36,031 nt of DNA from Melioribacteraceae bacterium (GTDB lineage: Bacteria; Bacteroidota; Ignavibacteria; Ignavibacteriales; Melioribacteraceae), in NCBI GenBank assembly GCA_024103215.1, contig JAGFIY010000161.1, positions 1 to 36,031 on the forward strand, read 5' to 3'. Position numbers and translations under genes: made by a program. The notes under the pieces were generated by a model. That model ran no database searches and was not told the origin of the DNA. It was given only the letters and a program-made list of their open reading frames with translations. Shown here piece by piece: positions 7,267 to 32,289 of the stretch. Each line of letters starts with the position of its first letter. Positions within the stretch are counted from its first letter, which is position 1.

Positions 7267-8625
7267 ATGAGTGTAATTAAAATCAAGAAAGGCTTAAACC
7301 TACCTATAACCGGCTCACTTCCCAAAATCGAAAACATCAGCGAAACAAAGAAAGTAACTAAAGTTGCTTTGCTTGGGGATGATTACATAGGTATGAAACC
7401 TTCTTTCGAAGTTAAGGAAGGTGATGTTGTAAAACTTGGTCAGCTTTTATTCAACGACAAAAAAACTCCCGGCGTAAAATACACCGCACCTGTTGCCGGA
7501 AAAGTAGTTGAGATTAACCGGGGTGAAAAACGAAAGTTTTTATCAATAGTAATTCAAATTGAAGGTAATGACGAAATAACATTCGAAAATTTTTCAGAAG
7601 GAAATCTTCTGGAGTTAGGGAGAGAAAAAGTTCAGAAAGTATTGATCGATTCAGGAATGTGGACTTCGATTAAATCACGTCCTTTCGGTAAAGTAGCAGC
7701 CCCCGGAACCACACCTCATTCAATTTTTGTAAACTTGATGGATACAAGCCCTTTAGCTCCGCCGATGGATCTAATTCTAAAGGGAAATGAGAATCACTTG
7801 GTTAACGGAGTAAAAGTACTAAGAAACTTAACTGAAGGAAAGATTTTTATCTGCAAATCCCCGAAATTAAGTTTAAATAATTTTGAAATTAAGAATACGG
7901 AAATTCACGATTTTGATGGTCCTCATCCTGCCGGACTTGTAGGTACCCATATTCATATGCTTGATCCCGTAAGTAGAAATAAAACAGTATGGTATATAGG
8001 TTTGCAGGATGTGATTGCAATAGGAAAACTCTTCACAAGCGGGAAATTGGATTTTGAGAGAGTTATTTCAATAGCAGGTCCCGGAGCGAAAAATCCAAAG
8101 GTTGTAAAAACAAGGATGGGTGCTTCAATAAGTGAAATTATTAATGGTGAGACAATCTCAGGGGAAATTCGGCCAATTGCTGGTTCGGTATTAAACGGAT
8201 ATGATGCCTCTCAAGAAGGTTATGGTTATTTGGGAAAATTTCACCAGACCGTCTCGCTTATAGCCGAAGGAACCGAAAGGAAATTCTTGGGTTGGCTGTT
8301 ACCGGGATCGAACGTATTCTCGGTTACAAATGCATTTCTCGCCGCGATGTTTAAAGGTAAAAAATTCAATTTAACTACTTCAACCAACGGAAACGAAAGG
8401 GCAATGGTTCCGATAGGTAATTATGAGCAAGTTACACCTTTGGATATTGTTCCAACATATCTTTTAAGAGCTCTCGCTGTTGATGATGTGGAAGAAGCCG
8501 AAAAATTAGGATGTTTGGAAATTGAGGAAGAAGACCTTGCCTTGTGTACTGTAGTCTGCTCTTCAAAAATAGATCATGGTAAAAATTTAAGAAGAAATTT
8601 AACCTTAATTGAAAAGGAAGGATAG
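7267..8625 (+). CDS. nqrA: Na+-translocating NADH:quinone reductase subunit A
   Basis: Peripheral subunit of the sodium-pumping NADH:quinone oxidoreductase, which couples NADH oxidation to Na+ export across the inner membrane. It has 452 residues, normal for NqrA, and no transmembrane segment. Recognisable stretches are the N-terminal [15 protein letters not shown], the biotinyl-lipoyl-like region around [18 protein letters not shown] and [15 protein letters not shown], and the C-terminal [15 protein letters not shown] with [15 protein letters not shown]. An AAGG-containing ribosome site lies 8-10 bases upstream. It is the first gene of nqrABCDEF; its stop overlaps the nqrB GTG start by one base. 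The family and the operon order leave little doubt. Confidence 0.96.
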
Positions 8626-9827
8626 TGAAATTTTTAAGGAATTTTCTAGACAAACAGCATAAGCATTTCAGTAAAGGCGGTAAGCTGGAGCGGCTCTATC
8701 CTGTTTATGAGATGGTTGATACCATACTTTATAGTCCAGGACTAACAACCAAGGGGAAAACCCACGTTAGAGACGGCTTGGATCTGAAAAGAATGATGAT
8801 TGTAGTAGTTGTTGCACTTATTCCTGCCACCCTTTTCGCACTGTATAATACTGGGTATCAAGCAAATCTCGCAATGCAGAATTTAAATCAACAGTTTCCC
8901 GGCACATGGCAAGGAGATGTAGCAAACTGGTTAGGATTAGGTTTTGATCCCTCAAGCCTTTTCGGAAATATTATTCTTGGGGCACTATATTTTTTCCCGG
9001 TATATTTAGTTACCCTTGCATTCGGCGGATTTTGGGAAGTTCTTTTCGCAACGATTAGAAGACACGAAGTTACCGAAGGATTTTTAGTCACAAGCCTTCT
9101 TTTCCCATTAATTCTTCCACCATCTATTCCATTGTGGCAGGTTGCAATTGGAATCTCTTTCGGTGTTGTGATTGGTAAAGAAGTTTTCGGCGGTGTTGGA
9201 ATGAATGTTCTAAACCCGGCGCTTACTGCAAGGGCATTTCTATTCTTTGCTTATCCAGCACAAATTTCGGGAGATAAAGTTTGGGTTGCCGTGGACGGAT
9301 TAAGCAGAGCCACACCACTTGCTGAAATGGCTGATTCATCGATGCACCTATCGACAACAATTACCGATGCCTTTTTTGGACTAATTCCCGGTTCTATGGG
9401 TGAAACCAGCGCTTTAGCTTGTCTTATTGGGGCAGTCGTTCTTATTGTTACTAAAGTTGGGTCGTGGAGAATTATGCTAAGTATTATTGTTGGTGCTGGA
9501 TTGACAGCTTTATTATTTAATGCTATCGGAAGTTCTACAAACCCAATGTTTAATGTTTCACCACTCTGGCACTTTGTTACAGGCGGTTTTGCTTTCGGTA
9601 CAGTATTTATGGCTACTGATCCCGTTTCAGCAGCAATGACTGAAAAGGGAAAATATGTTTACGGGTTTTTAATCGGGTTGCTTGTCGTTATGGTTAGGGT
9701 CGTGAATCCTGCATTTCCTGAAGGAATGATGCTTGCAATTCTCTTCGGAAACGTTTTTGCACCAATAATAGATAAAATTTTCTTGAATGCGAATATCAAA
9801 AGGAGACAACTGAGAAATGTCGTCTGA
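8625..9827 (+). CDS. nqrB: Na+-NQR subunit B, flavin-carrying membrane subunit
   Basis: Membrane subunit that binds covalent FMN and riboflavin and forms much of the Na+ path. It has 400 residues with about ten hydrophobic helices after a cytoplasmic N-terminus of some 55 residues. The flavinylation site is DGLSRATPL with Thr230, aligned with the ApbE recognition rule Dxx(S/T)xAT; the residue before AT is Arg where many NqrB proteins have Gly. Conserved [21 protein letters not shown] and [16 protein letters not shown] are present. Translation starts at GTG, sharing one base with the nqrA stop, which implies coupling. The C-terminus overlaps the nqrC start by 11 bases. Confidence 0.96.
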
Positions 9828-10608
9828 TAATCTTAAAAAAACGATAGGAGTTGCGCTCGGGGTTTGTCTCGTAGCATCAATTTTAGTTTCGACTGCTGCG
9901 GTTGAGTTGAAACCGATTCAAACTAAGAATGCGAAGCTTGATTTGTTGATAAATATTCTCGAAGCCGGAGATTTGTATTCGCCCGGTGTTGATATTCAAC
10001 AGACGTATAACGAAAAAATTTCGGCTGAATTAATTGAGCTTGAAACCGGTAAACCTCTAACGGAATCGGAATATACTGCGGAATTAACCCCTGAAAAATT
10101 TGATCTTAAATCTTGGGCATCAAGCCCGGAACTTGGAACCCCTATTCCTTCCGAACAAGATCTGGCAGATATAAAAAGACAGCCAAAATATATGGCTGTT
10201 TATACAGTCAAAAATACCGATGGCGAAATCGAGAAATATATTATGCCGATTATGGGTACGGGGTTGTGGTCAACTTTATACGGATTCATTGCATTAGATA
10301 AAGATCTCAAGACTATTAAAGGATTTACATTTTACGAGCACGGAGAAACACCCGGTCTTGGTGGTGAAGTTGATAATCCAAAATGGAAACAGCAATGGGT
10401 GGGAAAAAAAGCATTTGATGATAACTGGGATGTTAAAATACAAGTTCTGAAAGGAACTGTCGATGAAACTGATCCTAACAAACAATTTAAAGTTGACGGA
10501 CTTTCGGGATCGACTTTAACCACCCGGGGGGTGGATAACTTAGTCCGTTATTGGCTAGGCGAAAATGGTTATGGTCACTTTATTGACTATTTAAGAGGTG
10601 AGAGCTAA
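9817..10608 (+). CDS. nqrC: Na+-NQR subunit C, covalent FMN subunit
   Basis: Single-span subunit with covalent FMN that passes electrons between NqrD/E and NqrB. It has 263 residues, one N-terminal helix (about 9-30) and a periplasmic FMN-binding domain. The flavin attachment motif is [12 protein letters not shown] with Thr233. The position before that Thr is Ser instead of the commoner Ala, so the motif reads [17 protein letters not shown] and [16 protein letters not shown] are typical NqrC stretches. A clear AAAGGAG ribosome site lies at 9799-9805, inside the end of nqrB. The stop overlaps the nqrD ATG by one base. Confidence 0.96.
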
Positions 10609-11228
10609 TGAAAAAATATAAAGAGATATTATTCGATCCGATTTTTAATAATAATCCAATCGCGCTTCAGATATTAGGAATATGTTCCGCTCTTGCGGTT
10701 ACATCAAAATTGGAAACCTCAGTTGTTATGTCAATTGCGGTAACTTTGGTTGTTGCCTTTTCAAATCTATTTGTAAGTTTGATTAGAAATCATATTTCAA
10801 GCAGTACAAGAATTTTGATCGAAATGACGATCATTGCATCGCTGGTTATTATTGCGGATCAATTGATTAAAGCATTTGCTTATGATGTTAGTAAACAACT
10901 TTCGGTATATGTCGGACTAATAATTACAAACTGTATTGTTATGGGAAGGGCAGAAGCCTTTGCGCTTAAAAACAAACCATTTCCCAGTTTCCTTGATGGA
11001 ATCGGCAATGGCTTAGGTTACAGCTTTATTCTTCTAACAGTCGGATTTGTTAGGGAATTGATCGGTTCAGGTAAATTATTCGGCATCACAATTTTCTCAT
11101 CCGTTAATGACGGCGGATGGTATTTACCTAACGGATTATTTTTGTTGGCTCCAAGCGCATTCTTTCTGATTGGATTAATCATATGGACGATAAGAACCTT
11201 CAAACCAGAGCAAGTGGAAGAGGAATAA
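10608..11228 (+). CDS. nqrD: Na+-NQR subunit D
   Basis: Integral membrane subunit of 206 residues with six predicted helices, forming a pseudo-symmetric pair with NqrE. Cys26 ([10 protein letters not shown]) and Cys109 ([10 protein letters not shown]) are the two ligands which, with two from NqrE, hold the intramembrane iron-sulfur centre. EAFALKNKP and [14 protein letters not shown] are characteristic. The start overlaps the nqrC stop by one base (TAATG) and only one base separates it from nqrE. Confidence 0.96.
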
Positions 11229-11229
11229 G

Positions 11230-11841
11230 ATGGTAGAATATTATTTAAGTCTTTTTGTTAAGTCAATATTCGTTGAGAATATTGCTCTCGCATTCTTCCT
11301 TGGGATGTGTACTTTTCTTGCCGTATCTAAAAGAGTTGATACAGCTATCGGTTTGGGTATCGCAGTGGTTGTTGTGCAGGCAATTACGATGCCGGTTAAC
11401 AATTTGATATACCAAAACGTTCTTAAAGAAGGTGCTTTAAGCTGGATGGGATTAGATAATGTTGATCTGACATTCATAGGACTCATCACCTACATTGGCG
11501 TTATTGCTGCTATGGTTCAAATTCTTGAAATGACGCTCGATAAATATGTTCCCTCGTTATATAACTCATTGGGAATATTTCTTCCTCTTATTACTGTAAA
11601 CTGTGCGATTCTTGGTGGTTCTTTATTTATGGTTCAACGAGATTACAACTTTCCCGAAAGCGTCGTTTTCGGATTAGGTTCTGGAATTGGTTTTGCATTA
11701 GCGGTTATTGCTTTAGCAGGTATTAGAGAAAAAATGAAATACAGCAATGTGCCCCAAGGGTTGAGAGGATTGGGTATTACTTTTATTACCGTTGGTTTGA
11801 TGGCAATTGCATTTATGTTGTTTTCTGGAATTCAACTTTAG
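11230..11841 (+). CDS. nqrE: Na+-NQR subunit E
   Basis: Second half of the NqrD/NqrE membrane pair, 203 residues with six helices. Cys27 ([13 protein letters not shown]) and Cys125 ([14 protein letters not shown]) are the expected metal-centre ligands. [20 protein letters not shown] and [19 protein letters not shown] are strongly conserved family stretches. A GAGGA ribosome site sits in the last codons of nqrD. It is followed after 9 bp by nqrF. Confidence 0.96.
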
Positions 11842-11850
11842 AGGAATTTA

Positions 11851-13086
11851 ATGGACGGAATTAGTCTGATTATCCTTGGCGTAGTTTTCTTTACGCTTAT
11901 TGTACTGCTTTTAGTCGGAATTATTTTAGTTGCTCGTTCTAAACTTGTAACCACCGGCAACGTTAAAATCGAAATTAACGAAGATCCCGAACATACTATA
12001 ACTGTTCCTGTTGGCGGAAAGTTATTGAATGTGTTGGCAGATCAGAAAATTTTTATTCCGTCGGCTTGCGGCGGCGGCGGCACATGCGGTGAATGTAAAC
12101 TAATTGTTACTGAAGGCGGCGGTGATGTTTTACCTACTGAAAAATCAAAATTATCTCGTGGTCAAATTCGTGAGAATTATAGATTAAGCTGCCAGGTTGC
12201 CGTAAAAAACGATATGAAAATTGAAGTCGAACCCGAAGTTTTCGATATTAAGAAATGGGAGTGCACGGTAAAGTCTAACAAAAATGTTGCTACGTTTATT
12301 AAAGAACTTGTGCTCGAACTCCCCGAAGGTGAAAATGTTGACTTTAGAGCCGGCGGTTATATTCAAATTGAAGCCCCTCCGCACGAAGTTGATTTTAAAG
12401 ATTTCGATATTGAAGATGAATACAAACCGGATTGGGACAAATACAATGTGTGGCGTTACAAATCAAAAGTTGATGAAGATATAGTTCGTGCGTATTCGAT
12501 GGCTAATTATCCCGAAGAGAGGGGAATAATAATGCTGAACGTTCGGATCGCAACACCGCCGCCGAATAAGCCGGATGTTCCTCCGGGACAAATGTCATCC
12601 TACATTTTCAATCTTAAACCCGGTGATAAAGTTACTATCTCAGGACCTTACGGCGAATTCTTTGCGAAAGACACAGATAACGAAATGGTATTTGTTGGAG
12701 GAGGTGCTGGAATGGCACCGATGCGTTCTCATATTTTCGATCAGTTGAAACGAATAAAAACGGATCGGAAAATGACTTTCTGGTACGGAGCGAGAAGTTT
12801 AAGAGAAGTGTTCTATGCGGAAGAATTTGACGAACTTCAAGAAAAACATCCTAATTTTAAGTGGTACTTGGCGCTCTCGGAACCGCTTCCGGAAGACAAT
12901 TGGAATGGACCAACGGGATTTATTCATCAAGTGCTTCTTGAAAATTATCTAAAAGATCATCCCGCTCCTGAAGATTGCGAATATTACATGTGCGGTCCGC
13001 CGATGATGAACGCAGCAGTTATCAAAACTCTTGAAGATCTTGGCGTAGAACCTGAAAATATTATGCTTGACGATTTTGGCGGATAA
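11851..13086 (+). CDS. nqrF: Na+-NQR subunit F, NADH-oxidising 2Fe-2S/FAD subunit
   Basis: Entry point for electrons: it oxidises NADH and passes electrons through FAD to a 2Fe-2S cluster. It has 411 residues with one N-terminal membrane helix (about 5-28). A plant-type ferredoxin domain (about 36-125) has ligands Cys73, Cys79, Cys82 and Cys114 in [12 protein letters not shown] and LSCQ. A ferredoxin-reductase domain follows, with the FAD motif RAYSMANY (213-220) and NADH motif [11 protein letters not shown] (283-293). The C-terminus ends DDFGG as usual. AGAGGA lies 5-10 bases upstream of the ATG. It is the last structural subunit; a long-looped hairpin lies about 45 bp downstream. Confidence 0.96.
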
Positions 13087-13169: not shown

Positions 13170-13222
13170 TAGTTTTATCAGTCGATTCTCATTACGAACT
13201 TTAAAACAAAGTGAGGTCATTT

Positions 13223-13684
13223 ATGAAAACCGCAGCAGAATTACTACAAGAAAAAGGAAATGAGATATTCAGTGTTCCACCTGATTCAACAATATATGAT
13301 GCTCTGCAATTAATGAACAAAAACAACATTGGAGCTATGCTTGTTGAAGAAAACGGCAACATTATCGGTATTTGGACTGAAAGGGACCTTACACGGAATA
13401 TGCTGAGAGATGGTTTCGATATCAGAAAAACAAAAATTAAAGATGTAATGATTTCCGACCTCATTAAAGTTCCTCACGATTGTACTACTTATAAAATGAT
13501 GGATATTTTTCTCGGTAAAAGGCTGCGTCACCTTTTAGTAGAGAAAGAAGGCAAATTTATAGGATTGCTTTCAATCGGAGATGTCATAAAAGCAAATCTA
13601 ATGGCTAAATCCCAAGAACTTGAAGAGCTTAATAAAATTGTAAGCTTCGAATATTATTCGAATTGGAGATGGAAAAAGAAGTAA
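13223..13684 (+). CDS. CBS-domain pair protein in the nqr cluster
   Basis: A 153-residue soluble protein consisting almost entirely of two CBS motifs (about 12-62 and 75-125), with GIWTERDLTRNMLRDG closing the first and GLLSIGDVIKANL closing the second. CBS pairs usually bind adenine nucleotides (AMP, ATP, NADH, SAM) and act as energy sensors; no output domain is fused here. I chose ATG 13223 because GAGG at 13213-13216 sits six bases before it; an in-frame GTG lies 12 bases upstream. Its stop overlaps the apbE ATG by one base (TAATG), tying it to Nqr maturation. The partner and ligand are unknown. Confidence 0.85.
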   Translation: MKTAAELLQEKGNEIFSVPPDSTIYDALQLMNKNNIGAMLVEENGNIIGIWTERDLTRNMLRDGFDIRKTKIKDVMISDLIKVPHDCTTYKMMDIFLGKRLRHLLVEKEGKFIGLLSIGDVIKANLMAKSQELEELNKIVSFEYYSNWRWKKK

Positions 13685-14727
13685 TGACCATCCGTTTCGG
13701 ATTTTTTCTATCAATAATTTTATCATTCCTAATTCTCCTAAACTCGTGTAATACGGAAAAACAAGTTGAAGATCCATTTGTTATAAATGGATCAACGATG
13801 GGAACATACTATACTGTAAAAATCGTAAAAAATGATTCGCTCTTTACAAAAGAATATTATGAATCTTTGAAGAACAGAATAGATTCGGTTCTATATATTG
13901 TTAATCGTCAGATGTCAACATATATGGAAGATTCTGAGATTAGTATATTTAACAGCTTTCAAGATACAGGGTGGTTTCCTATAAGTTATGACTTTGCTTA
14001 TGTCGTAAAAACTGCACTTGATATTTCTGCAAAGACAGATACAGCACTCGATATATCTGTTGGTCCACTTGTTAACCTCTGGGGTTTTGGACCTGGTAAA
14101 GATAGATTAAATAAACTACCGGATTCTCTAGAGATTAAAAACTTATTGAGTCTTGTCGGTATTGGTAACCTAGATATAAGATTAAAACCGCCGAGTATAA
14201 AAAAAGCAATTCCGGAGATGTATATTGATCTTTCATCGATTGCTAAAGGATTTGGTGTGGATAAAGTAAGTGAATTATTAACTGATGATAACCACAATAA
14301 TTTTATGGTTGAAATTGGCGGAGAAGTTTTTGCGAGAGGTAGTAATCACTTGAATTCTCCTTGGAAAATTGGAATATCAACTCCTAACGAGACGATGGGT
14401 ATTAAGAAAATTTTATCTATTGATAATTTTGCGGTGGCAACTTCGGGTGATTATCGTAATTTCATCTCGATTGATAATAAAATATATTCTCACACAATCG
14501 ATCCAAGAACAGGATGGCCGATTAGACATAATTTAGCCTCAGTAACGGTTATTCACAGTAAATGTATGGTCGCCGATGGTTTTGCGACTGCTTTTGAAGT
14601 GCTTGGCGCAGAAAGATCACTTAAATTAGCAGAAAAATTGAAACTTCCCGTTTATCTGATTGTCAGAGATGATAACGAGTTTATTGAATATATGACTCAA
14701 GAATTTACTAATTTTGTAATTGAATAG
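13684..14727 (+). CDS. apbE: FAD:protein FMN transferase lipoprotein
   Basis: Transfers FMN from FAD to the threonines of NqrB and NqrC through a phosphoester bond, on the outer face of the membrane. The start at 13684 gives 347 residues with a lipoprotein signal whose lipobox is LNSC (Cys22). Family motifs are all present: GSTMGTYYTVKI, DISVGPLVNLWGFGP, IDLSSIAKGFGVDKV, EIGGEVFARG, ATSGDYRNF, HTIDPRTGWP and a final helix ATAFEVLGAERS. ATG 13684 fits the one-base overlap with the CBS gene better than an ATG 21 bases upstream, which would extend the signal peptide. Location right after nqr makes NqrB/NqrC the obvious substrates. Confidence 0.94.
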   Translation: MTIRFGFFLSIILSFLILLNSCNTEKQVEDPFVINGSTMGTYYTVKIVKNDSLFTKEYYESLKNRIDSVLYIVNRQMSTYMEDSEISIFNSFQDTGWFPISYDFAYVVKTALDISAKTDTALDISVGPLVNLWGFGPGKDRLNKLPDSLEIKNLLSLVGIGNLDIRLKPPSIKKAIPEMYIDLSSIAKGFGVDKVSELLTDDNHNNFMVEIGGEVFARGSNHLNSPWKIGISTPNETMGIKKILSIDNFAVATSGDYRNFISIDNKIYSHTIDPRTGWPIRHNLASVTVIHSKCMVADGFATAFEVLGAERSLKLAEKLKLPVYLIVRDDNEFIEYMTQEFTNFVIE

Positions 14728-14748
14728 AAGAATAGAAAGGCGGAAATA

Positions 14749-14940
14749 ATGGAATATATAATTCTTCCGGCAATTTTTTCGATAGCAGTTGTCGGCTTTG
14801 GTTTAGCTCTTCACTTCAGTAAATATAAACAAGAAGATAAAGGTTGCTGCGGTGGAGGACACTGCTCTACGGACGGATCTCATAAAACTCACGGATGTTA
14901 TTCATCAAAACTTGAGTACTTGGATAAAGTTACAAAATAA
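14749..14940 (+). CDS. Four-cysteine membrane miniprotein, NqrM-like by position and layout
   Basis: A 63-residue protein with one N-terminal helix (about 3-22), then a short cytoplasmic tail carrying Cys33, Cys34, Cys39 and Cys50 plus several His (GCCGGGHC, KTHGCY). NqrM (DUF539) has the same plan, a single helix followed by four essential cysteines. It lies directly after apbE in many bacteria and is needed to build the metal centre held by NqrD and NqrE. The cysteine spacing here is not the SCGG / CxC pattern I remember for proteobacterial NqrM, so this may be a divergent NqrM or an unrelated metal-handling protein such as the FeoB-associated Cys-rich type. AAAGGCGG upstream is a good ribosome site. 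A terminator follows immediately. Confidence 0.75.
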   Translation: MEYIILPAIFSIAVVGFGLALHFSKYKQEDKGCCGGGHCSTDGSHKTHGCYSSKLEYLDKVTK

Positions 14941-14942
14941 TT

Positions 14943-14965
14943 AAGCTGCTGTTGCAGCTTTTTTT
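14943..14965 (+). terminator. Intrinsic terminator closing the nqr-apbE run
   Basis: AAGCTGC (14943-14949), TGTT loop and GCAGCTT (14954-14960) form a perfect 7-bp stem, running straight into a seven-T tract (14959-14965). It starts two bases after the stop of the four-cysteine protein, so that gene belongs to the upstream transcription unit. Confidence 0.85.
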
Positions 14966-14998
14966 ATAAATATTCACTTCAACTAATTTGAGAACCCA

Positions 14999-19640: not shown

Positions 19641-20888
19641 TTAAACCCAACCCCGTAATTTACAAGCTTCGGCAACGCGTGCAACTCCCACCGCCATCGC
19701 AGCTAATCTAGGATGTACTTTCTTATCTTTGATCGCTTCTTGAACTGTATGGTAAGCTTTTGAAATTTTCTTATCCAGTCTTTGTTGAATCTGTTCTTCA
19801 TCCCAAAAATATGAATACTTATCCTGAACCATCTCAAAGTATGAAACAGTGACACCGCCGGCACTTGCCAAAATATCCGGGATAACGTGAACTCCATTTT
19901 TATTCAAAATAAGATCAGCTTCGGGTGTTGTTGGACCATTAGCTAATTCACTGATTATTTTAGCTTTAATCCGACCTGCATTAGCGGAAGTTATTGCATT
20001 CTCGAGAGCTGCGGGATACAATATTTCAACATCGAGTGTAAGTAGTTCGTCATGATGAATTGATTTTGACCCGGGGAAATTTTTTACTGATCCGGTTCTT
20101 AATTTGTGCGTAACTAATTCTTTTGGATCCATGCCGTCCGGATTATAAATAGCTGCCCTTGAATCGCTTACCGCTATTAGTTTTCCTCCGCCTAAAATTT
20201 CTTGATGAAGCAAAGCAGCTCTTTGTCCTGCATTTCCAAAACCTTGTATTGCATAAGTTTTAGTAGGATCAAATCCATATACTTTGCAAGCTTCTCTAAC
20301 ATTAATAACTCCACCACGAGCAGTCGCATCGCGCCTTCCTTCGGTTCCGCCCACTTGCTGCGGTTTATCGGTTAAAATACCCGGTTGATGTTTATTTATA
20401 ATAATTTCGTATTCATCCATCATCCAAGTCATTGTTTGCGGATTAGTGTAAACATCCGGTGCTGGTATATCCCTTTCAATTCCAATTATAGGTGCAATAG
20501 CTCGAATATAACCGCGGGAAACTGATTCTAATTCACGCTCGCTCATGTTTTTAGGATCGCAGCAAACACCGCCCTTACCTCCTCCAAGAGGCAAATCAAC
20601 AACTGCAGTTTTCCAAGTCATCCAGCAGGCTAATGCTCTTATCGTATCAACAGTTTCATCAGGATGAAATCTAATCCCTCCTTTAGCCGGTCCACGCGCA
20701 GTATTGTATTGTATTCTCCAAGCATGAAAAATTTTGACCTTACCGTTGTCCATTCTAACCGGGTATGTGAATTTAAATTCTCTTTGAGGATTAATTAACA
20801 GTTCGACTGTTGCTTGATCTAGATTAAGTAACTTAGCTGCTTCGAGAACTTGCTGCTGTGCCACCTTGAATGAATTGTAAGATTCCAT
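19641..20888 (-). CDS. Glutamate dehydrogenase, Glu/Leu/Phe/Val family (415 aa type)
   Basis: Interconverts glutamate and 2-oxoglutarate plus ammonium. It has 415 residues and belongs to the group typified by Bacillus GudB/RocG and archaeal GDH rather than to E. coli GdhA. Substrate-domain motifs are ARGPAKGGIRFHP, PLGGGKGGV with catalytic Lys105, and PAPDVYTNPQTM with Asp145. The Rossmann loop is IQGFGNAGQRAA (about 214-225), followed by AVSDSRAAIYNPDG. Cofactor preference is not certain; family members are often NAD-linked or dual. AGAGGA lies 8 bases before the ATG, overlapping the stop of the zinc-ribbon gene. It is the third gene of an operon with a Rec-ATP-grasp protein and is well diverged from the two class-I GDHs at 24214-25575 and 30913-32253. 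Confidence 0.94.
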   Translation of the reverse strand: MESYNSFKVAQQQVLEAAKLLNLDQATVELLINPQREFKFTYPVRMDNGKVKIFHAWRIQYNTARGPAKGGIRFHPDETVDTIRALACWMTWKTAVVDLPLGGGKGGVCCDPKNMSERELESVSRGYIRAIAPIIGIERDIPAPDVYTNPQTMTWMMDEYEIIINKHQPGILTDKPQQVGGTEGRRDATARGGVINVREACKVYGFDPTKTYAIQGFGNAGQRAALLHQEILGGGKLIAVSDSRAAIYNPDGMDPKELVTHKLRTGSVKNFPGSKSIHHDELLTLDVEILYPAALENAITSANAGRIKAKIISELANGPTTPEADLILNKNGVHVIPDILASAGGVTVSYFEMVQDKYSYFWDEEQIQQRLDKKISKAYHTVQEAIKDKKVHPRLAAMAVGVARVAEACKLRGWV

Positions 20889-20892
20889 CAGG

Positions 20893-21099
20893 TTATTCCT
20901 CTTTTTTATCTTCTTCTTTTGATAAATTGTTTTTAGGAGGCGATTTTTCTATATCGTCCAAGATTATTCGGTACCAACAATTTTTGCACATTAATGCTCT
21001 ATCTACACTTAGCAGCACCTGCTGCCATGGACTGAGTTTATGTCCGCAGTGAGGGCAGTGATCAATTACTGTTTTTTTATCTTTATTTTCTTCGGCCAA
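20893..21099 (-). CDS. Zinc-ribbon miniprotein between the ATP-grasp and GDH genes
   Basis: A 68-residue protein with CPHC (Cys15, Cys18) and CKNC (Cys38, Cys41) framing a 19-residue loop, followed by a highly charged Lys/Glu tail. I recognise no named family; the layout is a classic zinc ribbon. The start is TTG at 21099, supported by a strong GGAGG six bases upstream that lies inside the last codons of the preceding gene. The reading frames overlap by 17 bases. The next gene, glutamate dehydrogenase, starts 4 bp after its stop. The placement suggests an accessory or regulatory subunit for one of its neighbours. Confidence 0.75.
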   Translation of the reverse strand: MAEENKDKKTVIDHCPHCGHKLSPWQQVLLSVDRALMCKNCWYRIILDDIEKSPPKNNLSKEEDKKEE

Positions 21100-24091
21100 T
21101 TTCAGCCTCCGGCTTAAGAATTATCCCTTTGTTTTTGTGTCCGTTCATTTTAACCAAAATTGGGTTTTTAAGTTCTATATGTTTTGTAAAAACCTTACTT
21201 TCAGTATTAGTCTGAGATTTTAACCAAGCCCAATCAAGATGACCTAATTTATTAGAATCAACTGTAAAATATCCGATCATAAATGATGTAATATTTTGAA
21301 AAAAGTGTGTACCTTGAGACGGCATGACGGAAAATTCCTTAAAACCGGATTCCACAATTACTTTTGCTCCTGCAATTTGCTCCCAAGTAACAGGAATACC
21401 CAGCCACGGATCTAATGAACCCCATCTTCCAACTCCAATCAACAGATAAGGTTTATTCTCTTCCAAAAGTTTTGAGTTAAAATAGCTCACTTCTTTTGCG
21501 ACTTCTATACTTCTTGATCTTTCAAATTTGTCATAATCTACATACACAATATTTTTTATATCATTAATTAACCCGTTTCCAAGAACTTGTGTGCTGTAGC
21601 AAATTATATCTTCTTTTTTAGTGTCTTCTATTGTTAGTTCCTCTACTTCATGATTAATTACCAACGGTCTCATTTGTAGTATTCCGAACTCTTTCAGGTT
21701 GTTTTGATCAGGTGTCATATTTACCGCAAATTCTATTTCAACGGGTGTTCCCATTCCCCATGTACCCATATCTAAAAGAAGTTCTAAAATTTGGGGTAGG
21801 GGAAAAAGTTTGTTCCGTAGAATAGGTCCGAAAGTAACCAATCTACTTCCTTCTCTGCTTAACCCGTCGTAAATTCTATCATTTTCTGCTGAATGAACCG
21901 ATCCAACGTAGTGAAGCGTTCCATCGCTTTCAGCAGTATCCAAATCAAATTTTTTCAAAAGCATATCATGTGTTTCATAACCAAATTCAGAATTACCGTC
22001 TAAAAGAAGCGCGTAAAAATCTTTTTGACTACTATTTAATGATTCCTTAACTGATGAAAACTGCAGCAGGTCGGTCGGATATTTAGGACAAAATCTAACA
22101 GTATTGCCGCCATCAACAACGGTTTTTCCTAAACCAAGCGCCACAGAAATTATTCCATCCGTAGATTTTTGCGGGGAGATTGGATAGAAATTATACGATT
22201 TAGCAACGCCCGAAAAATCCGGGTAAAATCTATTTTGATGAGTGTTCCCAACCATTCGCTGAATTATAACGGCCATTTTTTCTTCTTCTAATCGATAGGA
22301 CGTTACTTTTATATAATTTTTTGCACTTTTGTAGAATGTTGAGGCATATACTCTTTTTATACTATTAAGCAGATCGTTTAATCGGATAAGTGCATTTGAG
22401 TGAATGTTCGGAATCATATACGTTTCATAAACACCGGCGAAAGGATGGTATTGAGAATCTTCAAGCAAACTGGAAGATCTAATCGCGAGTGGTGATCTAA
22501 CAATATCCAAGAAAGCAGCAAGTTCACCCAAAATATCTTCCGGAAACTTCCCGGCTTCAAGAAACTTTTTGGTTATTTCAGTATCATCATCACAATTTAG
22601 TGCAAACTTTTTCAGGTTATTTTCTTCAAGGAACTGATCGAAAACATCCGTACCTATTACAATTCCAGACGGTACGGATATTTGTATGTTCTCAAAACTA
22701 TCCCTTACGTTATAGTTGTTTATTAATGTATTAACAAAACTTAGACCCCGAGCTTTACCTCCGAGCGATCCTCCTCCTATTCTCGCGAAACTGCTTCCGG
22801 GATCAAATGTTTCTTTTGAGAAATCAGTTATAATTCCTCTTTGCCTGAAACTAATATAATTCAATACAGCTTTTATTAAATATGATCTGAGGTCTTCAAC
22901 AGTCTTATAATCCGAAACTTTTCTTGGACGAAGTTGATGAGCTAAATAAAATTCTGTTCTGGCTTTTAACCAATTAGAAAAATGATTTCTCTCTGCGTGG
23001 TATTTTATACTTTCTGCAGGTACGGATTTCATTTGCTCAACAAGAGACTTTAAGTCAAAAGCTCTTCCGACTTCCATACCGTTTTCGGATCTAAAAATGA
23101 AGTCGCCAAAACTGAAATAATTTACCATAAATTGACGAAGTTCATTTAGAAGAGTGGGTGAATCCTTCATTATAAATGATGTTTTGTATTCGAGTGCGCT
23201 TTCTTCATTTTCGGGATTATGCGAAAGCAAAAGTATAGGTATATCACTTTGTTGAGCTTTTACACTTGAAGCGAATTTTATCCCTGCCTGAGGATCCTGA
23301 ATTCCATTATGAGGGAAATCTATATCAGAAATTACACCTAAAATAAATTCTTTATAACTTGTATAGTAGTTCCAAGCCTCTTCATAATTAGAGCATAGGA
23401 GGATTTTAGGTCTAGCTCTCATTCTTAAAAACTTGTGACTTAGATTTATTCCTTCTGAAATTAATCTTTGAGACTGTTTCATCGTTTCTGTATAAATTAT
23501 CGGCAGAAACGAAGAATAATATCTTACATTATCTTCGATTACTATTATACTCTGGACTCCGACTATTTTTGTGTCGTGAGCAACGTTTGCGCGGTCCTCA
23601 AAATATTTTATAATTGCGATTATAATTCTAAAATCGCCCTGCCAAACAAATATTTTATCAAATACTTCAGTGTTCTTGTTTAACAAAAGATATTTTAATT
23701 CTTTGTTGTCGTGAGCCAATAAAACAACCGGAATATCTAAGCCGGATTCTTTAACTAATTTAGCAAGTTGAGTTGCATGCATATCTTCGATATGAAGTGT
23801 CGTAATAATTAAATCGAATCTTTTTTCTTCCTTGGCAAGTGCTATTGCATCAGAACCGCTTGAAACTCTTGTCAACTCTGGGGAATGGCTTAACTGCAAC
23901 CCTTGGTATTCATTCCGAATAAGTTCGTAGAGTCTGCCATCTTCTTCATAGAGATAAAGATCATAAAGGCTTGAGACCAAAAGAATATCCCGGATACGAA
24001 ACCTCATCAAGTTTTGAAAACCTTGAAATCGATTTCCGTAACCATGCTCGATCCACATCGAATCCGTTTGATCCGGTACTGATTCTTTCAT
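21083..24091 (-). CDS. Rec-Rec-PEP synthase-like ATP-grasp protein (1002 aa)
   Basis: A cytoplasmic 1002-residue protein. Residues 34-165 are a receiver-like fold without the acidic pair and with Thr98 at the phosphoacceptor position. Residues 180-325 are a second receiver with Glu186/Asp187, Asp256 (ISDIDFP) and Lys309, i.e. apparently active. A linker (330-430) leads to a PEP-synthase/PPDK nucleotide-binding domain (about 435-812): GGGSLGGKARGL, AIRSSSLLEDS (Arg538), FAGVYET, VEIEFAV and LQMRPL. The tail (about 830-990) has GRWGSLDPWLGIPV and PSQGTHFFQNITS (His929). There is no swivelling phosphohistidine domain and no PEP/pyruvate barrel, so it is not a complete PEP synthase. It heads an operon with the zinc-ribbon and 415-aa GDH genes. 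Its paralog is at 27814-30798. Biochemical role unknown. Confidence 0.85.
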   Translation of the reverse strand: MKESVPDQTDSMWIEHGYGNRFQGFQNLMRFRIRDILLVSSLYDLYLYEEDGRLYELIRNEYQGLQLSHSPELTRVSSGSDAIALAKEEKRFDLIITTLHIEDMHATQLAKLVKESGLDIPVVLLAHDNKELKYLLLNKNTEVFDKIFVWQGDFRIIIAIIKYFEDRANVAHDTKIVGVQSIIVIEDNVRYYSSFLPIIYTETMKQSQRLISEGINLSHKFLRMRARPKILLCSNYEEAWNYYTSYKEFILGVISDIDFPHNGIQDPQAGIKFASSVKAQQSDIPILLLSHNPENEESALEYKTSFIMKDSPTLLNELRQFMVNYFSFGDFIFRSENGMEVGRAFDLKSLVEQMKSVPAESIKYHAERNHFSNWLKARTEFYLAHQLRPRKVSDYKTVEDLRSYLIKAVLNYISFRQRGIITDFSKETFDPGSSFARIGGGSLGGKARGLSFVNTLINNYNVRDSFENIQISVPSGIVIGTDVFDQFLEENNLKKFALNCDDDTEITKKFLEAGKFPEDILGELAAFLDIVRSPLAIRSSSLLEDSQYHPFAGVYETYMIPNIHSNALIRLNDLLNSIKRVYASTFYKSAKNYIKVTSYRLEEEKMAVIIQRMVGNTHQNRFYPDFSGVAKSYNFYPISPQKSTDGIISVALGLGKTVVDGGNTVRFCPKYPTDLLQFSSVKESLNSSQKDFYALLLDGNSEFGYETHDMLLKKFDLDTAESDGTLHYVGSVHSAENDRIYDGLSREGSRLVTFGPILRNKLFPLPQILELLLDMGTWGMGTPVEIEFAVNMTPDQNNLKEFGILQMRPLVINHEVEELTIEDTKKEDIICYSTQVLGNGLINDIKNIVYVDYDKFERSRSIEVAKEVSYFNSKLLEENKPYLLIGVGRWGSLDPWLGIPVTWEQIAGAKVIVESGFKEFSVMPSQGTHFFQNITSFMIGYFTVDSNKLGHLDWAWLKSQTNTESKVFTKHIELKNPILVKMNGHKNKGIILKPEAEIGRRK

Positions 24092-24117
24092 ATAATCCGA
24101 AAGATATTATAAACAAT

Positions 24118-24147
24118 TAAATATATGAAAAAAGAAGCTGCCTCAAA
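24118..24147 (-). promoter_or_regulatory. Candidate promoter of the 1002-aa gene, embedded in the upstream terminator
   Basis: Reading the minus strand, TTTG (24147-24144), an 18-bp spacer and TATATTTA (24125-24118) approximate the TTTG / TAnnTTTG consensus. The -33 element lies in the 3' arm of the terminator of the preceding gdh gene. The predicted leader would be about 20 nt. The same arrangement recurs before the 994-aa paralog. Confidence 0.3.
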
Positions 24148-24188
24148 AGACACTGTATTTATAAACAAAAGTATTTTCTTTTGAGGCA
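24132..24188 (-). terminator. Terminator of the 453-aa glutamate dehydrogenase gene
   Basis: TGCCTCAAAAGA (24188-24177 on the minus strand) pairs perfectly over 12 bp with TCTTTTGAGGCA (24150-24139) around a 26-nt loop, and is followed by GCTTCTTTTTTC. It begins about 25 bp after the gdh stop. The stem is strong; the T tract is set off by a few bases. Confidence 0.75.
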
Positions 24189-24213
24189 TACTCTAAAACA
24201 ATAATAACAGGAA

Positions 24214-25575
24214 TTAAACAACACCTTGATCAATCATAGCATCGGCAACTTTTAGGAACCCTCCGATATTTGCGCCGTTGACGTAATTACCCGGCGTTCC
24301 GAAACGGTCTGCATTTAGCACACAAGTTGCATGTATATTTTTCATAATCATTCTTAATCTTTCATCTACTTCCTCACGTGTCCAAGGCAAGCGCATACTG
24401 TTTTGCGACATTTCCAGCCCGGATACCGCAACGCCTCCTGCATTTGCAGCTTTCCCGGGACCGTAGAGAATTTTATTATCTAGAAAGAGATTTACACCTT
24501 CAATAGTTGTAGGCATATTAGCGCCTTCGCTAACTACATAAACCCCATTGTTCAAAAGATTCTGTGCATCCTTTTCATTTATCTCGTTTTGAGTTGCGCT
24601 AGGGAAAGCACATTCAGCTTTGTGGTTCCAAAGAGGGTTGTACTCCATCTTAGGATCTAATTCAGTATAAACCGCATTTTTAAACTTATCAGTATATTCC
24701 TTAATCCTTCCTCTTCTTACATTTTTAAGATGCATTACGAATTCCAATTTCTCTTCGCTAATCCCTTCTTCATCATAAATGTAACCATTGGAATCGGAGA
24801 GTGTCACAACTTTGCCACCGAGAGAGTTAATTTTTTGCACAGTAAATTGTGCAACATTCCCGCTGCCGGAAACGAGACAAGTTTTACCCGCTAATGTTTC
24901 ATTTTTTGTTCCAAGCATTTCGGCAGCAAAATAAACTGCGCCGTAACCTGTGGCTTCAGGTCTAATTAAAGAACCTCCCCAGTTTAGTCCTTTTCCGGTT
25001 AGAACACCGGTAAATTCATTTCTTAATTTTTTATACTGTCCGAAAAGATAACCAATTTCCCTTCCGCCCACACCGATATCTCCGGCGGGAACGTCAGTGT
25101 TGGGTCCTATATGCCTGTAGAGTTCACTCATAAAAGCCTGACAAAATCTCATTACTTTTAAATCACTTTTACCTTTTGGATCAAAATCCGAACCGCCTTT
25201 TCCGCCGCCCATTGGTAATGAGGTTAAACTATTTTTAAAAACTTGTTCGAATGCAAGAAATTTTAAAATGCCAAGGTTTACCGAAGGGTGGAATCGCAAA
25301 CCACCTTTGTATGGACCGATTGCACTATTCATTTCAATTCTGAAACCGCGGTTGATATGAACCTCGCCTTGTTCATCCACCCAAGGAACGCGGAAAGTAA
25401 TCACTCTTTCCGGTTCTATAATTCTTTCCAACACTTTTGCCGCACGGTATTCGGGATGTCTGTCTAATACAATAGAAATTGATTCCGTCACCTCTTGCAC
25501 TGCTTGATGAAATTCTGGTTCTGCAGGATTTTTTGCTATTACTTCAGCCATTAATTCTTTTACATACTCAGACAT
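24214..25575 (-). CDS. gdhA: Class-I glutamate dehydrogenase, NADP-type signature (453 aa)
   Basis: Hexameric GDH of the E. coli GdhA class, 453 residues. Substrate-domain motifs are [30 protein letters not shown] with catalytic Lys126, and [10 protein letters not shown] with Asp166. The Rossmann loop SGSGNVAQ (236-243) and the end of the second strand TLSDSNG (258-264) match the NADP-dependent E. coli enzyme (GSGNVAQ, SDSSG), so an ammonium-assimilating role is likely. GGAG stands about 10 bases before the ATG. Residues 1-210 are about 87 percent identical, counted by eye, to the 446-aa paralog at 30913-32253, whereas the Rossmann domain is far more diverged. It is transcribed alone, behind a palindromic operator and before a strong terminator. 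Confidence 0.95.
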   Translation of the reverse strand: MSEYVKELMAEVIAKNPAEPEFHQAVQEVTESISIVLDRHPEYRAAKVLERIIEPERVITFRVPWVDEQGEVHINRGFRIEMNSAIGPYKGGLRFHPSVNLGILKFLAFEQVFKNSLTSLPMGGGKGGSDFDPKGKSDLKVMRFCQAFMSELYRHIGPNTDVPAGDIGVGGREIGYLFGQYKKLRNEFTGVLTGKGLNWGGSLIRPEATGYGAVYFAAEMLGTKNETLAGKTCLVSGSGNVAQFTVQKINSLGGKVVTLSDSNGYIYDEEGISEEKLEFVMHLKNVRRGRIKEYTDKFKNAVYTELDPKMEYNPLWNHKAECAFPSATQNEINEKDAQNLLNNGVYVVSEGANMPTTIEGVNLFLDNKILYGPGKAANAGGVAVSGLEMSQNSMRLPWTREEVDERLRMIMKNIHATCVLNADRFGTPGNYVNGANIGGFLKVADAMIDQGVV

Positions 25576-27813: not shown

Positions 27814-30798
27814 TCAAACTGATAAACCGGGTTTCAATATAATTCCTTGATTTTGGTGTCCATTTATTTTAACAGAGATTGGTTCTTTGAACTCCAAATG
27901 TCTTGCAAAATTAAATTCTTCAACAGCTTCTTGGCTAAGCATCCATTCCCAGTCAATAAAAGCAGATTTATCAGTTGAGTTAACTGTAAAATATCCTACT
28001 CTGAAGCTCGTAATATTTTGAAAGAAGTGTGATCCCTGTGAAGGTGTGACGTTAAAGTCTTTAAATCCAGACTCAACAATTGTACATGCCCCGGAAATTT
28101 GATCCCAGGTCACCGGGATACCCAGCCAATGATCAAAAGAACCCCATCTTCCGACTCCTATAAGGATATAAGGTCTTTGCCGCTTAAGTAATTTTTTGTT
28201 AAACTGACTAATTTCATAAGCGACCTCACTACTTTTGCCTCTGTCAAATTTATTTATATCAACCACAATCAGATCATAGATGCCATGAAATGATCCATTC
28301 CCCAACACTTGTGAACTTCTACAAATTAAATTTTCCTTAGGGTATTCCTCTAATTTTAATATCTCAACTTCACGGCTTATTACTAAAGGACGCATTTGTA
28401 AGAATGCAAATTCTTTCGGGCTAACATTCATATTTACAGCAAATTCAATTTCAACATACGTTCCCATTCCCCACGTGCCTAATTCTAAGAGAAGATCAAG
28501 AATATCTGCCAAAGGAAATACCTTATGTTTTAAAATAGGAGAGAAAGTTACAACTCTTTTTCCGGCACGCGAAATACCATCGTAAACTGCATCGTTTTCT
28601 GGTGAGTATGTTGATCCAACGTAATTAAGTGTTTGATCTTTTTCGGCGGCAGACAAATCATATTGTTTAACGAAAATTTCCGGATCTTGCTCAATACTAA
28701 CTATCTTTGTTTTTAAGTCCAAAGCATAAAAACTTTGTTGAGCATTTCTAATAGTCTCTTTAGTTGAGAAAAACTGTAATAGATGTCTCGGAAATTTCGG
28801 ACAAAACCGAACTGTTTCTCCACCCTCTACAACGGTTTGTCCTAAACCAAGCGCCACAAACGCAATTCCATCCTGAGATTTTTGAGGAGGTACCGGGTAA
28901 AAATTATATGATTTAGCAACACCGGCAAAATCGGGATAAAATCTCGACTGATGTTTTGAGCCAATCAATCGCTGAACAATTACCGCCATTTTTTCTTCCT
29001 CAAGCCTATATGATGTTGCCTTCATATAATCTTTAGCTGAACTTAGGAACTGGGAAGCATAAACACTTTTAATCGCTGTTAAAAGTTCATCTAATCTTAT
29101 TTCCGGATCGGGATCGTTGTTGGGAATCATAAAAGTTTTGTACACACCGGCAAATGGTTGGAACTGTGAATCTTCAAGAAGACTAGAAGATCTAACTGCT
29201 AAAGGCTCGTTTATTATTTCAAGAAACTCTCTAAGTTTATTTAATATATCTTCTGGAAATATAGATGCTTCGCGAAAAGTTTTTGAAATTAGATTATCGT
29301 CATTTTCATTCAACGCAAAGTTGAACAGTTTATTATCTTCAATGAATTGATCGAATACATCTGTTGCTATAACAATTGCGGAGGGAACAGATATTTGAAT
29401 TCCGGGATATCTGTTATGCAGTTCATAGTTGTTTATAAGTGTATTTATAAAACCCAAACCTCTGGCTTTACCACCTAAAGATCCGCCGCCTACACGTGCA
29501 AAACTATTATTAGGGTCAAAGGTAACTTTATTGAAATCGGTTACAATTCCTCTCGTTCTAAGTTGTTGATAAAGGACAAGTGAATCGATAAGATTTTGAC
29601 GTAACGCATCGTTTGTAGGAAAGTCGCTTAGCTTACGCGGACGAAGTCGATCGGCAAGCCAAAATTCTGTTCTTGCTTTTAACCAGCGGGAAAAATCATT
29701 TCGCTCTGAGTGAAAAATTAGTGATTCATCCGGAACCGTTGCTAATTGTTCTTCCAGTTGTCTTAGATTTGATGCTCTCGAAACTTCACTGCCATCCGGG
29801 AGACGAAAAATAAAATCACCAAAGCCGAAGTTTTCCAGAATAAAATTTCTCAAATCGTGAAGAAGTCGAGGCGAACCTTTGAGTAAAAAACCGACTTCAA
29901 TTTCCTTTGCCCGTGCTTCATATTCAGGATTACTAGACTGAAGAAGTATGGGAATATCGTGATGCATTTTTCTGACTTCCATTGCAAATTTAATTCCGGC
30001 TTCGGGATCGCGGATTCCTTCCCGCTTAAAATTTATATCTGTGATTACACCAAGTGTATATTCGTGATACTTTTCGTAATACTCCCATGCCTCTTCGTAA
30101 GTAGTGCATAAAAGAATTTTTGGACGAGCTCGCATCCTTAAATATTTGTGTGTAAGATTCACACCTTCAGAAAGTAAATACTGAGACTGCTTTAATATAA
30201 CTTTATAGATCAACGGGAGATAAGTAGAATAAAATTTTACATTATCTTCGACAACAATGATGCATTGAACTCCCCCAGTGCGAGTGTCATTCTCGACATT
30301 AAACTTATCTTCTATGTATTTTATTATTCCTATCAGCAATCGATAATCGCCTTGCCAAATAAAAATTCTATCAAATACTGAAACATCGTAATGCGTTTGT
30401 ATTTCTTTTCGCTCACGGTTATCATAAGCAAGAAGAATTATCGGTGTGTCTATTTCCAATTTTCTTACTTTGTTTACAAAATTGATTGGGTGCATATCCT
30501 CAATGTGAAGAGTTGTGACAATAAGATCAAAAGCGCTCTTCCCGTTGTTCATTAATTCAATTGCTTCGGATGCAGTAGTTACTGCGGTGAGTTCGGGGGC
30601 ATGACTCAAATTTAGGTTTTGATATTCTTCGCGTATAAGTTCATATAATCTTCCGTCTTCTTCAAAAAGGTAATTATCATAAAGACTTGAAACAAGGAGT
30701 ATATCACGAATTTTATAACGCATCAATTTCTGGAAGCGCTTGATTCTTTGACCGAACATACTCTTTAAACTGAGTTGTTCGAGCTTATTCATCTTCAT
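27814..30798 (-). CDS. Rec-Rec-PEP synthase-like ATP-grasp protein (994 aa)
   Basis: Paralog of the 1002-aa protein at 21083-24091, with the same order: degenerate receiver (about 32-163; Thr96 in place of Asp), intact receiver (about 178-323; Glu184/Asp185, Asp254, Lys307), linker, PPDK-type nucleotide-binding domain (about 433-806; GGGSLGGKARGL, AVRSSSLLEDS, VEIEFAV, LQMRPL) and the same tail with GRWGSFDHWLGIPV and PSQGSHFFQNITS. It lacks the catalytic phosphohistidine and PEP-binding domains of PEP synthase and PPDK, so an ATP-dependent phosphorylation or binding role on another partner is more likely than PEP synthesis. Start at ATG 30798 (another in-frame ATG at 30792). It leads an operon with the histidine kinase and response regulator genes. 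Confidence 0.85.
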   Translation of the reverse strand: MKMNKLEQLSLKSMFGQRIKRFQKLMRYKIRDILLVSSLYDNYLFEEDGRLYELIREEYQNLNLSHAPELTAVTTASEAIELMNNGKSAFDLIVTTLHIEDMHPINFVNKVRKLEIDTPIILLAYDNRERKEIQTHYDVSVFDRIFIWQGDYRLLIGIIKYIEDKFNVENDTRTGGVQCIIVVEDNVKFYSTYLPLIYKVILKQSQYLLSEGVNLTHKYLRMRARPKILLCTTYEEAWEYYEKYHEYTLGVITDINFKREGIRDPEAGIKFAMEVRKMHHDIPILLQSSNPEYEARAKEIEVGFLLKGSPRLLHDLRNFILENFGFGDFIFRLPDGSEVSRASNLRQLEEQLATVPDESLIFHSERNDFSRWLKARTEFWLADRLRPRKLSDFPTNDALRQNLIDSLVLYQQLRTRGIVTDFNKVTFDPNNSFARVGGGSLGGKARGLGFINTLINNYELHNRYPGIQISVPSAIVIATDVFDQFIEDNKLFNFALNENDDNLISKTFREASIFPEDILNKLREFLEIINEPLAVRSSSLLEDSQFQPFAGVYKTFMIPNNDPDPEIRLDELLTAIKSVYASQFLSSAKDYMKATSYRLEEEKMAVIVQRLIGSKHQSRFYPDFAGVAKSYNFYPVPPQKSQDGIAFVALGLGQTVVEGGETVRFCPKFPRHLLQFFSTKETIRNAQQSFYALDLKTKIVSIEQDPEIFVKQYDLSAAEKDQTLNYVGSTYSPENDAVYDGISRAGKRVVTFSPILKHKVFPLADILDLLLELGTWGMGTYVEIEFAVNMNVSPKEFAFLQMRPLVISREVEILKLEEYPKENLICRSSQVLGNGSFHGIYDLIVVDINKFDRGKSSEVAYEISQFNKKLLKRQRPYILIGVGRWGSFDHWLGIPVTWDQISGACTIVESGFKDFNVTPSQGSHFFQNITSFRVGYFTVNSTDKSAFIDWEWMLSQEAVEEFNFARHLEFKEPISVKINGHQNQGIILKPGLSV

Positions 30799-30829
30799 AG
30801 GCGATTATTTTTTGATATAACATGCGGTT

Positions 30830-30860
30830 AAAATATAATAAAAAAGGCAATCGATTCAAT
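30830..30860 (-). promoter_or_regulatory. Candidate promoter of the 994-aa/kinase/regulator operon, embedded in the upstream terminator
   Basis: On the minus strand ATTG (30860-30857), a 19-bp spacer and TATATTTT (30837-30830) approximate the TTTG / TAnnTTTG consensus. The leader would be about 25 nt. The -33 element and most of the spacer lie in the terminator of the upstream gdh gene. The sequence is AT-rich, so the call is tentative. Confidence 0.3.
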
Positions 30861-30889
30861 TTATTTTATAATAAATATCGACTGCCTTT
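30836..30889 (-). terminator. Terminator of the 446-aa glutamate dehydrogenase gene
   Basis: On the minus strand AAAGGCAGTCGAT (30889-30877) pairs with ATCGATTGCCTTT (30855-30843) over 13 positions with one mismatch, loop of 21 nt, followed by a T6 tract and TATT. It starts about 24 bp after the gdh stop. Confidence 0.8.
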
Positions 30890-30912
30890 AAAGTTAGTTA
30901 CTGATGTAAAGA

Positions 30913-32289
<1,377 letters not shown>

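Follow-up and report, generated by a model that had tools for sequence, protein, structure and literature searches.

The analysed stretch of DNA (36,031 nucleotides, hereafter the window) carries an nqr cluster in the order nqrABCDEF, CBS-domain gene, apbE, P0001 gene. The features considered here are:
7267–8625, + strand: nqrA (PF24836/PF05896)
8625–9827, + strand: nqrB (PF03116 and gene order)
9817–10608, + strand: nqrC (PF04205 and gene order)
10608–11228, + strand: nqrD (Pfam)
11230–11841, + strand: nqrE (Pfam)
11851–13086, + strand: nqrF (Pfam, TIGR01941)
13211–13684, + strand: gene of a CBS-domain protein (PF00571)
13684–14727, + strand: apbE, FMN transferase family (PF02424)
14736–14743, + strand: ribosome-binding-site-like AAAGGCGG, read from the sequence
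14749–14940, + strand: nqrM-like gene P0001, ATG start, 63 aa, with orthologues in the window's family
14761–14826, + strand: codons 5–26 of P0001, single predicted transmembrane helix that bears an order-specific likeness to canonical NqrM
14845–14898, + strand: codons 33–50 of P0001, C-C-G-G-G-H-C...C cluster, read from alignment A1
14943–14967, + strand: intrinsic-terminator-like hairpin (14943–14960) and T run, from sequence and fold test

The ATG of P0001 lies 21 nt beyond the apbE stop at 14727 and 5 nt from the end of AAAGGCGG. The protein has cysteines at positions 33, 34, 39 and 50 and histidines at 22, 38, 45 and 48, and its AlphaFold model contains a single confident helix (5–26), the remainder being of low confidence. 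The earlier note on this DNA had described a protein with one helix and four cysteines at these positions, which both the ORF and the model bear out. The ORF is a real gene beyond chance expectation, since orthologues are present in 33 of the 79 genomes of the window's family and the cysteines are conserved. Directly 3' of P0001 the hairpin folds with z = -3.55, with 2 of 200 shuffles equally good, and suggests the end of a transcription unit. Over the whole stretch 9 terminator-like matches were counted against 6.3 expected (sd 3.0) and 24 promoter-like matches against 26.1 expected, both counts being within chance. The earlier note took the terminator as showing a single transcription unit. 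The terminator-like hairpin is indeed found directly behind P0001, but a hairpin is no proof of one transcript from nqrA; judged by the gene layout, co-transcription from nqrA is likely.

Orthologues were called with profile A1 at E ≤ 1e-15 in the 79 genomes of the window's family. A1 comprises 31 rows including the window, taken from the 33 orthologues; L025 (a near-copy of L026) and the sequence from G042 (CCSS) were left out. NqrF (TIGR01941) was matched in 35 of the 79 genomes. NqrA was checked in nine genomes, eight of which were picked as apparent exceptions, and was present in G004 and G047 though NqrF was not found there, so that the family has 37 NQR genomes. All 33 orthologues are located in NQR genomes. 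The earlier note had named occurrence of the protein in genomes that lack nqr as evidence against its reading: among 42 genomes without detected NQR, defined by the absence of NqrF at E ≤ 1e-60 and in one case (G045) also by the absence of NqrA, there was no orthologue (Fisher p = 3.5e-18, a value that ignores relatedness). When considering only NQR genomes of at least 90% completeness, 27 of 28 have an orthologue; in the 28th, G006, the contig stops 3 bases past the nqrF match. The NQR genomes without an orthologue (G006, G040, G041 and G047) are 68–91% complete, the last three 68–81%, and in G040 and G041 unrelated genes follow nqrF.

An ApbE homologue is located directly upstream on the same strand in 27 of the 30 loci L002–L031. 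Adding G004, G005 and G042 (L076, L074 and L078), 30 of the 33 orthologues are directly behind an ApbE homologue. The exceptions are G074, where the orthologue is on a separate contig from nqr and apbE, G078, whose 3.3 kb contig bearing the gene has no apbE, and G010, in which nqrF precedes the orthologue and apbE does not intervene. Because of the apbE linkage in 30 of 33 cases, the co-occurrence with NQR is in part one linkage counted again. Canonical nqrM is likewise found directly behind apbE in 11 of 14 loci (ten annotated records and Aeromonas, in which apbE was recognised by eye; neighbours were read for all of the 14 but L167 and L170), in agreement with the position after apbE that the earlier note had compared to that of NqrM. 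In Klebsiella canonical nqrM lies directly behind nqrF.

C34 (the CGG cysteine), C39 and C50 occur in all 31 rows of A1, an alignment that also retains the helix. C33 is present in 29 rows, and the two rows without it gain a downstream Cys for a total of four; at least four Cys are found in every row. The CGG cysteine is followed by GG or GE in 30 rows and by SG in one. P0001 resembles NqrM (PF04400) in its length, the single N-terminal helix, the basic linker, the four Cys and the CGG cysteine, and its family in the position behind apbE and the confinement to NQR genomes. The layout of the cysteines is different, as the earlier note had pointed out: most rows are spaced C-C-x4-C-x(8-15)-C, whereas canonical NqrM is spaced C-x11-C-x(1-2)-C...C. 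The P0001 family has an extra Cys right before the CGG cysteine, a Cys at +5 and a variable, often His-bearing loop, and most members are without the CxC or CxxC second half. Rows L074 and L076 read CGG..C.C...C, which is closer to the canonical spacing. The orthologue of G042, outside A1, has four Cys in the pattern CCSS...C..C without CGG.

Searches with NCBIfam gave no match to P0001. PF04400, which has a curated Pfam cut-off of 22 bits, matched neither P0001 nor any of the 31 A1 rows at E ≤ 10 (HMMER with filters), as had been foreseen for a search with the DUF539 profile, while the same profile recognises each of the 14 canonical NqrM at E ≤ 1 (best 4.7e-24; one score 26.1 bits). The sole Pfam match of P0001 is to FeoB_associated (PF12669); the earlier note had also proposed to check this family, and at 15.9 bits against a cut-off of 27 the match is sub-threshold only. 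A canonical nqrM elsewhere in the genome, which the earlier note had set against its own reading, did not appear in the window genome (99.9% complete): PF04400 found nothing at E ≤ 10 and the second family described below (A3 and A5 profiles) is absent. Above cut-off, PF04400 was found in 0 of the 79 family genomes in a six-frame search run without a positive control on a canonical-NqrM genome, with sub-threshold matches in 9 of them, and in 0 of 296 sampled phylum genomes. Sub-threshold matches in 16 of the 296 were read, and none had a helix preceding an NqrM-like Cys motif. At E ≤ 1 the PDB search returned a single chain, from a receptor fusion (0.88), with no NQR chain and no relative, and the plasmid search gave no relative. 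The sole match of a collection scan (L001) was dropped, its reading frame being antisense to a long ORF.

We used hhalign to compare A1 with A2, an alignment of the 14 canonical NqrM. The two match at 95.5% (E 1.4e-8) over 38 columns that comprise helix, linker and CGG; with mostly-gap columns removed the score is 41.8. When the first 26 columns of A2 were permuted the score fell to a mean of 17.0 (maximum 29.7) and 0 of 150 permutations reached 41.8. Permuting only the hydrophobic core gave a mean of 21.3 (maximum 36.8), with 0 of 120 reaching the observed score. Since the helix permutations never match the observed value, the likeness exceeds shared hydrophobicity. The Cys half contributes little, because its permutation leaves a mean of 38.1 versus 41.8, with 4 of 60 reaching the observed score. 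Compared with A1, NqrM scored 45.4, FeoB_associated 27.1, the second family 24.4 and a tiny KSCCK family 17.6. P0001 and NqrM are probably homologues, the Cys cluster having been rebuilt in P0001, which we keep outside PF04400. Calling it a branch of NqrM is probable and no firmer, because it is the helix and CGG that carry the likeness. With the failure of PF04400, the profile-profile match and the permutation controls that it survived, the unrecognised NqrM branch missed by profile searches that the earlier note had suspected is supported.

For V. cholerae, two articles (PMC12174285, PMC6209661) place nqrM and apbE downstream of the nqr genes and describe NqrM as seemingly needed for insertion of the intramembranous [2Fe-2S] cluster. 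From sequence comparison, gene order and co-occurrence with NQR we infer, and consider quite likely, that P0001 acts in the maturation of Na+-NQR as a divergent factor of the NqrM type. In the predicted layout a membrane helix leads through a lysine-rich linker to four cysteines around CGG. Given this linker, the positive-inside rule would place the Cys tail in the cytoplasm. There its thiols may bind ferrous iron, which could be passed on to the paired cysteines in NqrD and NqrE, so that the intramembrane iron(-sulfur) centre would form alongside flavinylation by ApbE. The substrate for such a factor appears to be in place, because NqrD and NqrE of the window keep their Cys pairs in proteobacterial contexts: the sole cysteines are 26 and 109 in NqrD and 27 and 125 in NqrE, with contexts as in three proteobacterial proteins each, one of the three NqrD having an extra Cys. 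C34 would then correspond to the CGG cysteine found in proteobacterial NqrM. We take Cys33 of V. harveyi NqrM to be this CGG cysteine. Kostyrko et al. 2016 reportedly found Cys33 to be essential.

P0001 could instead be a stand-in without homology to NqrM, i.e. a small iron-binding membrane protein, for example of FeoB_associated descent, that was recruited to the nqr cluster. The Cys layout unlike that of NqrM would fit such an origin, and PF12669 matches at E ≤ 10 are found in 28 of the 31 A1 rows (best 1.7e-4), with A1 versus FeoB_associated at 71%. NqrM however gives the stronger match (95.5%), one that relies on the order of the helix residues, whereas 18 of 120 core permutations reach the FeoB_associated score, which is therefore not order-specific. 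We regard a stand-in of this kind as unlikely. Much less probable still is a different role linked to NQR, for instance as one of its small subunits, in regulating the complex or in assisting ApbE. Position and co-occurrence alone leave the step unspecified and would agree with any of these, but the conserved cysteines point to metal, nqrM occupies the same place in Proteobacteria and no NQR chain came up in the PDB search. That a FeoB_associated iron-uptake protein or general metal chaperone sits in the nqr cluster by accident is scarcely credible: like this family P0001 is small with one helix and a Cys-rich tail with CGG, but its weak PF12669 match stays below the cut-off, the likeness is not order-specific, there is no FeoB among the nine cluster proteins scanned (nqr genes, CBS, apbE, PD40 protein), and the true members, which pass the cut-off in 5 of the 79 family genomes, with nqrF present in only one of these five genomes (G011), read CGGCTGC.

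Besides the NqrM-type candidate itself, A1 finds a paralogue in 7 of the 79 family genomes, all 7 with NQR. Its alignment A6 (L084:2986-3153, L086:3224-3394, L085, L087 and L077) has the consensus MEQ..FFS.AL.GFWGALKFSKFKGES..EC....C..KKLGIK...C and matches A1 at 98% with a score of 68.0, higher than that of NqrM against A1; against NqrM it reaches 10%, which is no match. At L084 the neighbouring gene is presumably multicopper-oxidase-like, and at L086 we take the neighbours to be a copper-type P-ATPase and a YHS-like gene. We also noticed tiny conserved proteins of 32–33 aa with weak PF12669 matches (L214, L218, L219, L221, L222, L228 and L233), which consist of a helix and an SCCK or SCCR end. 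In G007 and G008 such a protein and the copper-cluster paralogue are about 6 kb apart.

For the rest of the phylum we used an even draw of 296 genomes, each at least 90% complete. The phylum is presumably Bacteroidota, because the NqrF of G300 has its three best named matches in Bacteroides, Phocaeicola and Parabacteroides (61–67%). NqrF was found in 55 of the 296 genomes. A1 found P0001 relatives in 9 genomes, all NqrF-positive and all within the window's family. Two further A1 matches were rejected: the one in G304 (E 0.0011) has a hydrophobic stretch and NGCC....C, but its frame is antisense to a long ORF, and the one in G316 (E 0.0096) has a similar-looking helix (FAKWKK), yet the protein is without Cys and presumably PspB-like. 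Both genomes carry NqrF and the second family.

This second family was met when reading 17 nqrF loci from other families, six of which have a small ORF beside apbE. It consists of a helix and a four-Cys motif, about GTC.S.NP..C..CG...C, and was represented by profiles of six rows (A3) and 30 rows (A5). NCBIfam held no fitting name for the six A3 rows, and Pfam gave sub-threshold matches only. A3 matches were found in 44 of the 296 genomes, all 44 of them NqrF-positive, and the four Cys are kept in 42. The gene lies within 10 kb of nqrF in 13 of the 44 genomes; in the other 31 it is more than 10 kb away or on another contig, and for these the co-occurrence is therefore not close linkage. Together the P0001 family and the second family are present in 53 of the 55 NqrF-positive genomes and in 0 of the 241 others (Fisher p = 9e-57, again ignoring relatedness). 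A5 and NqrM match over 54 columns at 90.7% (E 1.2e-6). This match is also order-specific for the helix (none of 150 permutations in one test and none of 120 in another reach the score), on which it rests: with the Cys half of A2 permuted 49 of 150 reach it. The two families have in common one helix, four Cys and the restriction to NqrF-positive genomes, but the P0001 family is mostly located behind apbE and the second family mostly away from nqr. The direct match of the second family to A1 is weak (4.4% with 6 rows, 39% with 30 rows).

The weakest second-family matches, L245 (G292) and L246 (G300), keep one Cys (HVSGN...GV.C) and are from NqrF-positive genomes; these relatives are either degenerate or do a different job. 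G232 has an NqrF-like stretch and is probably no NQR genome, because NqrA is absent. In G326, which has nqrABCDEF with NqrA present (L145), PF04400, A1 and the second family are all without a match, no candidate lies in the 18 kb around nqr and A5 finds none genome-wide. It is possible that G326 has a third solution to the role of NqrM.

A review states that NQR first arose in Bacteroidetes, and names V. cholerae NqrM as the maturation factor for the intramembrane cluster (PMC12174285). With 0 of 296 genomes passing PF04400, the P0001 family and the second family are candidates for the missing NqrM in this phylum. They are also the genes to co-express when producing such NQR complexes in E. 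coli, and the first cysteine to mutate is the CGG one in the P0001 family and the GTC one in the second family. In the mostly open-access literature on NqrM/DUF539, on FeoB-associated Cys-rich membrane proteins and on the NQR of Bacteroidota and Ignavibacteria, titles and opening lines of abstracts mention no NqrM of this kind. The novelty of the P0001 family is provisional, because subscription literature lies mostly outside this search. Tentatively, and with more doubt than confidence, one may go further and ask whether iron insertion into Na+-NQR has been re-tooled repeatedly, in this phylum by two or more NqrM types whose Cys clusters were rebuilt or by independent FeoB_associated-like recruits, the copper-cluster paralogue being the scaffold reused for another metal. 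If so, failed profile searches would be hiding a superfamily of one-helix, four-Cys metal-insertion factors.

Elsewhere in the window, positions 21083–25575 and 27814–32253 (- strand) contain a duplicated gene pair. The proteins of about 1000 aa are 60% identical, and each has an accompanying dehydrogenase-like protein, those two being 71% identical. We take the accompanying proteins to be glutamate-dehydrogenase-like. A third such ORF, besides those of the duplicated pair, is located at 19641–20888.
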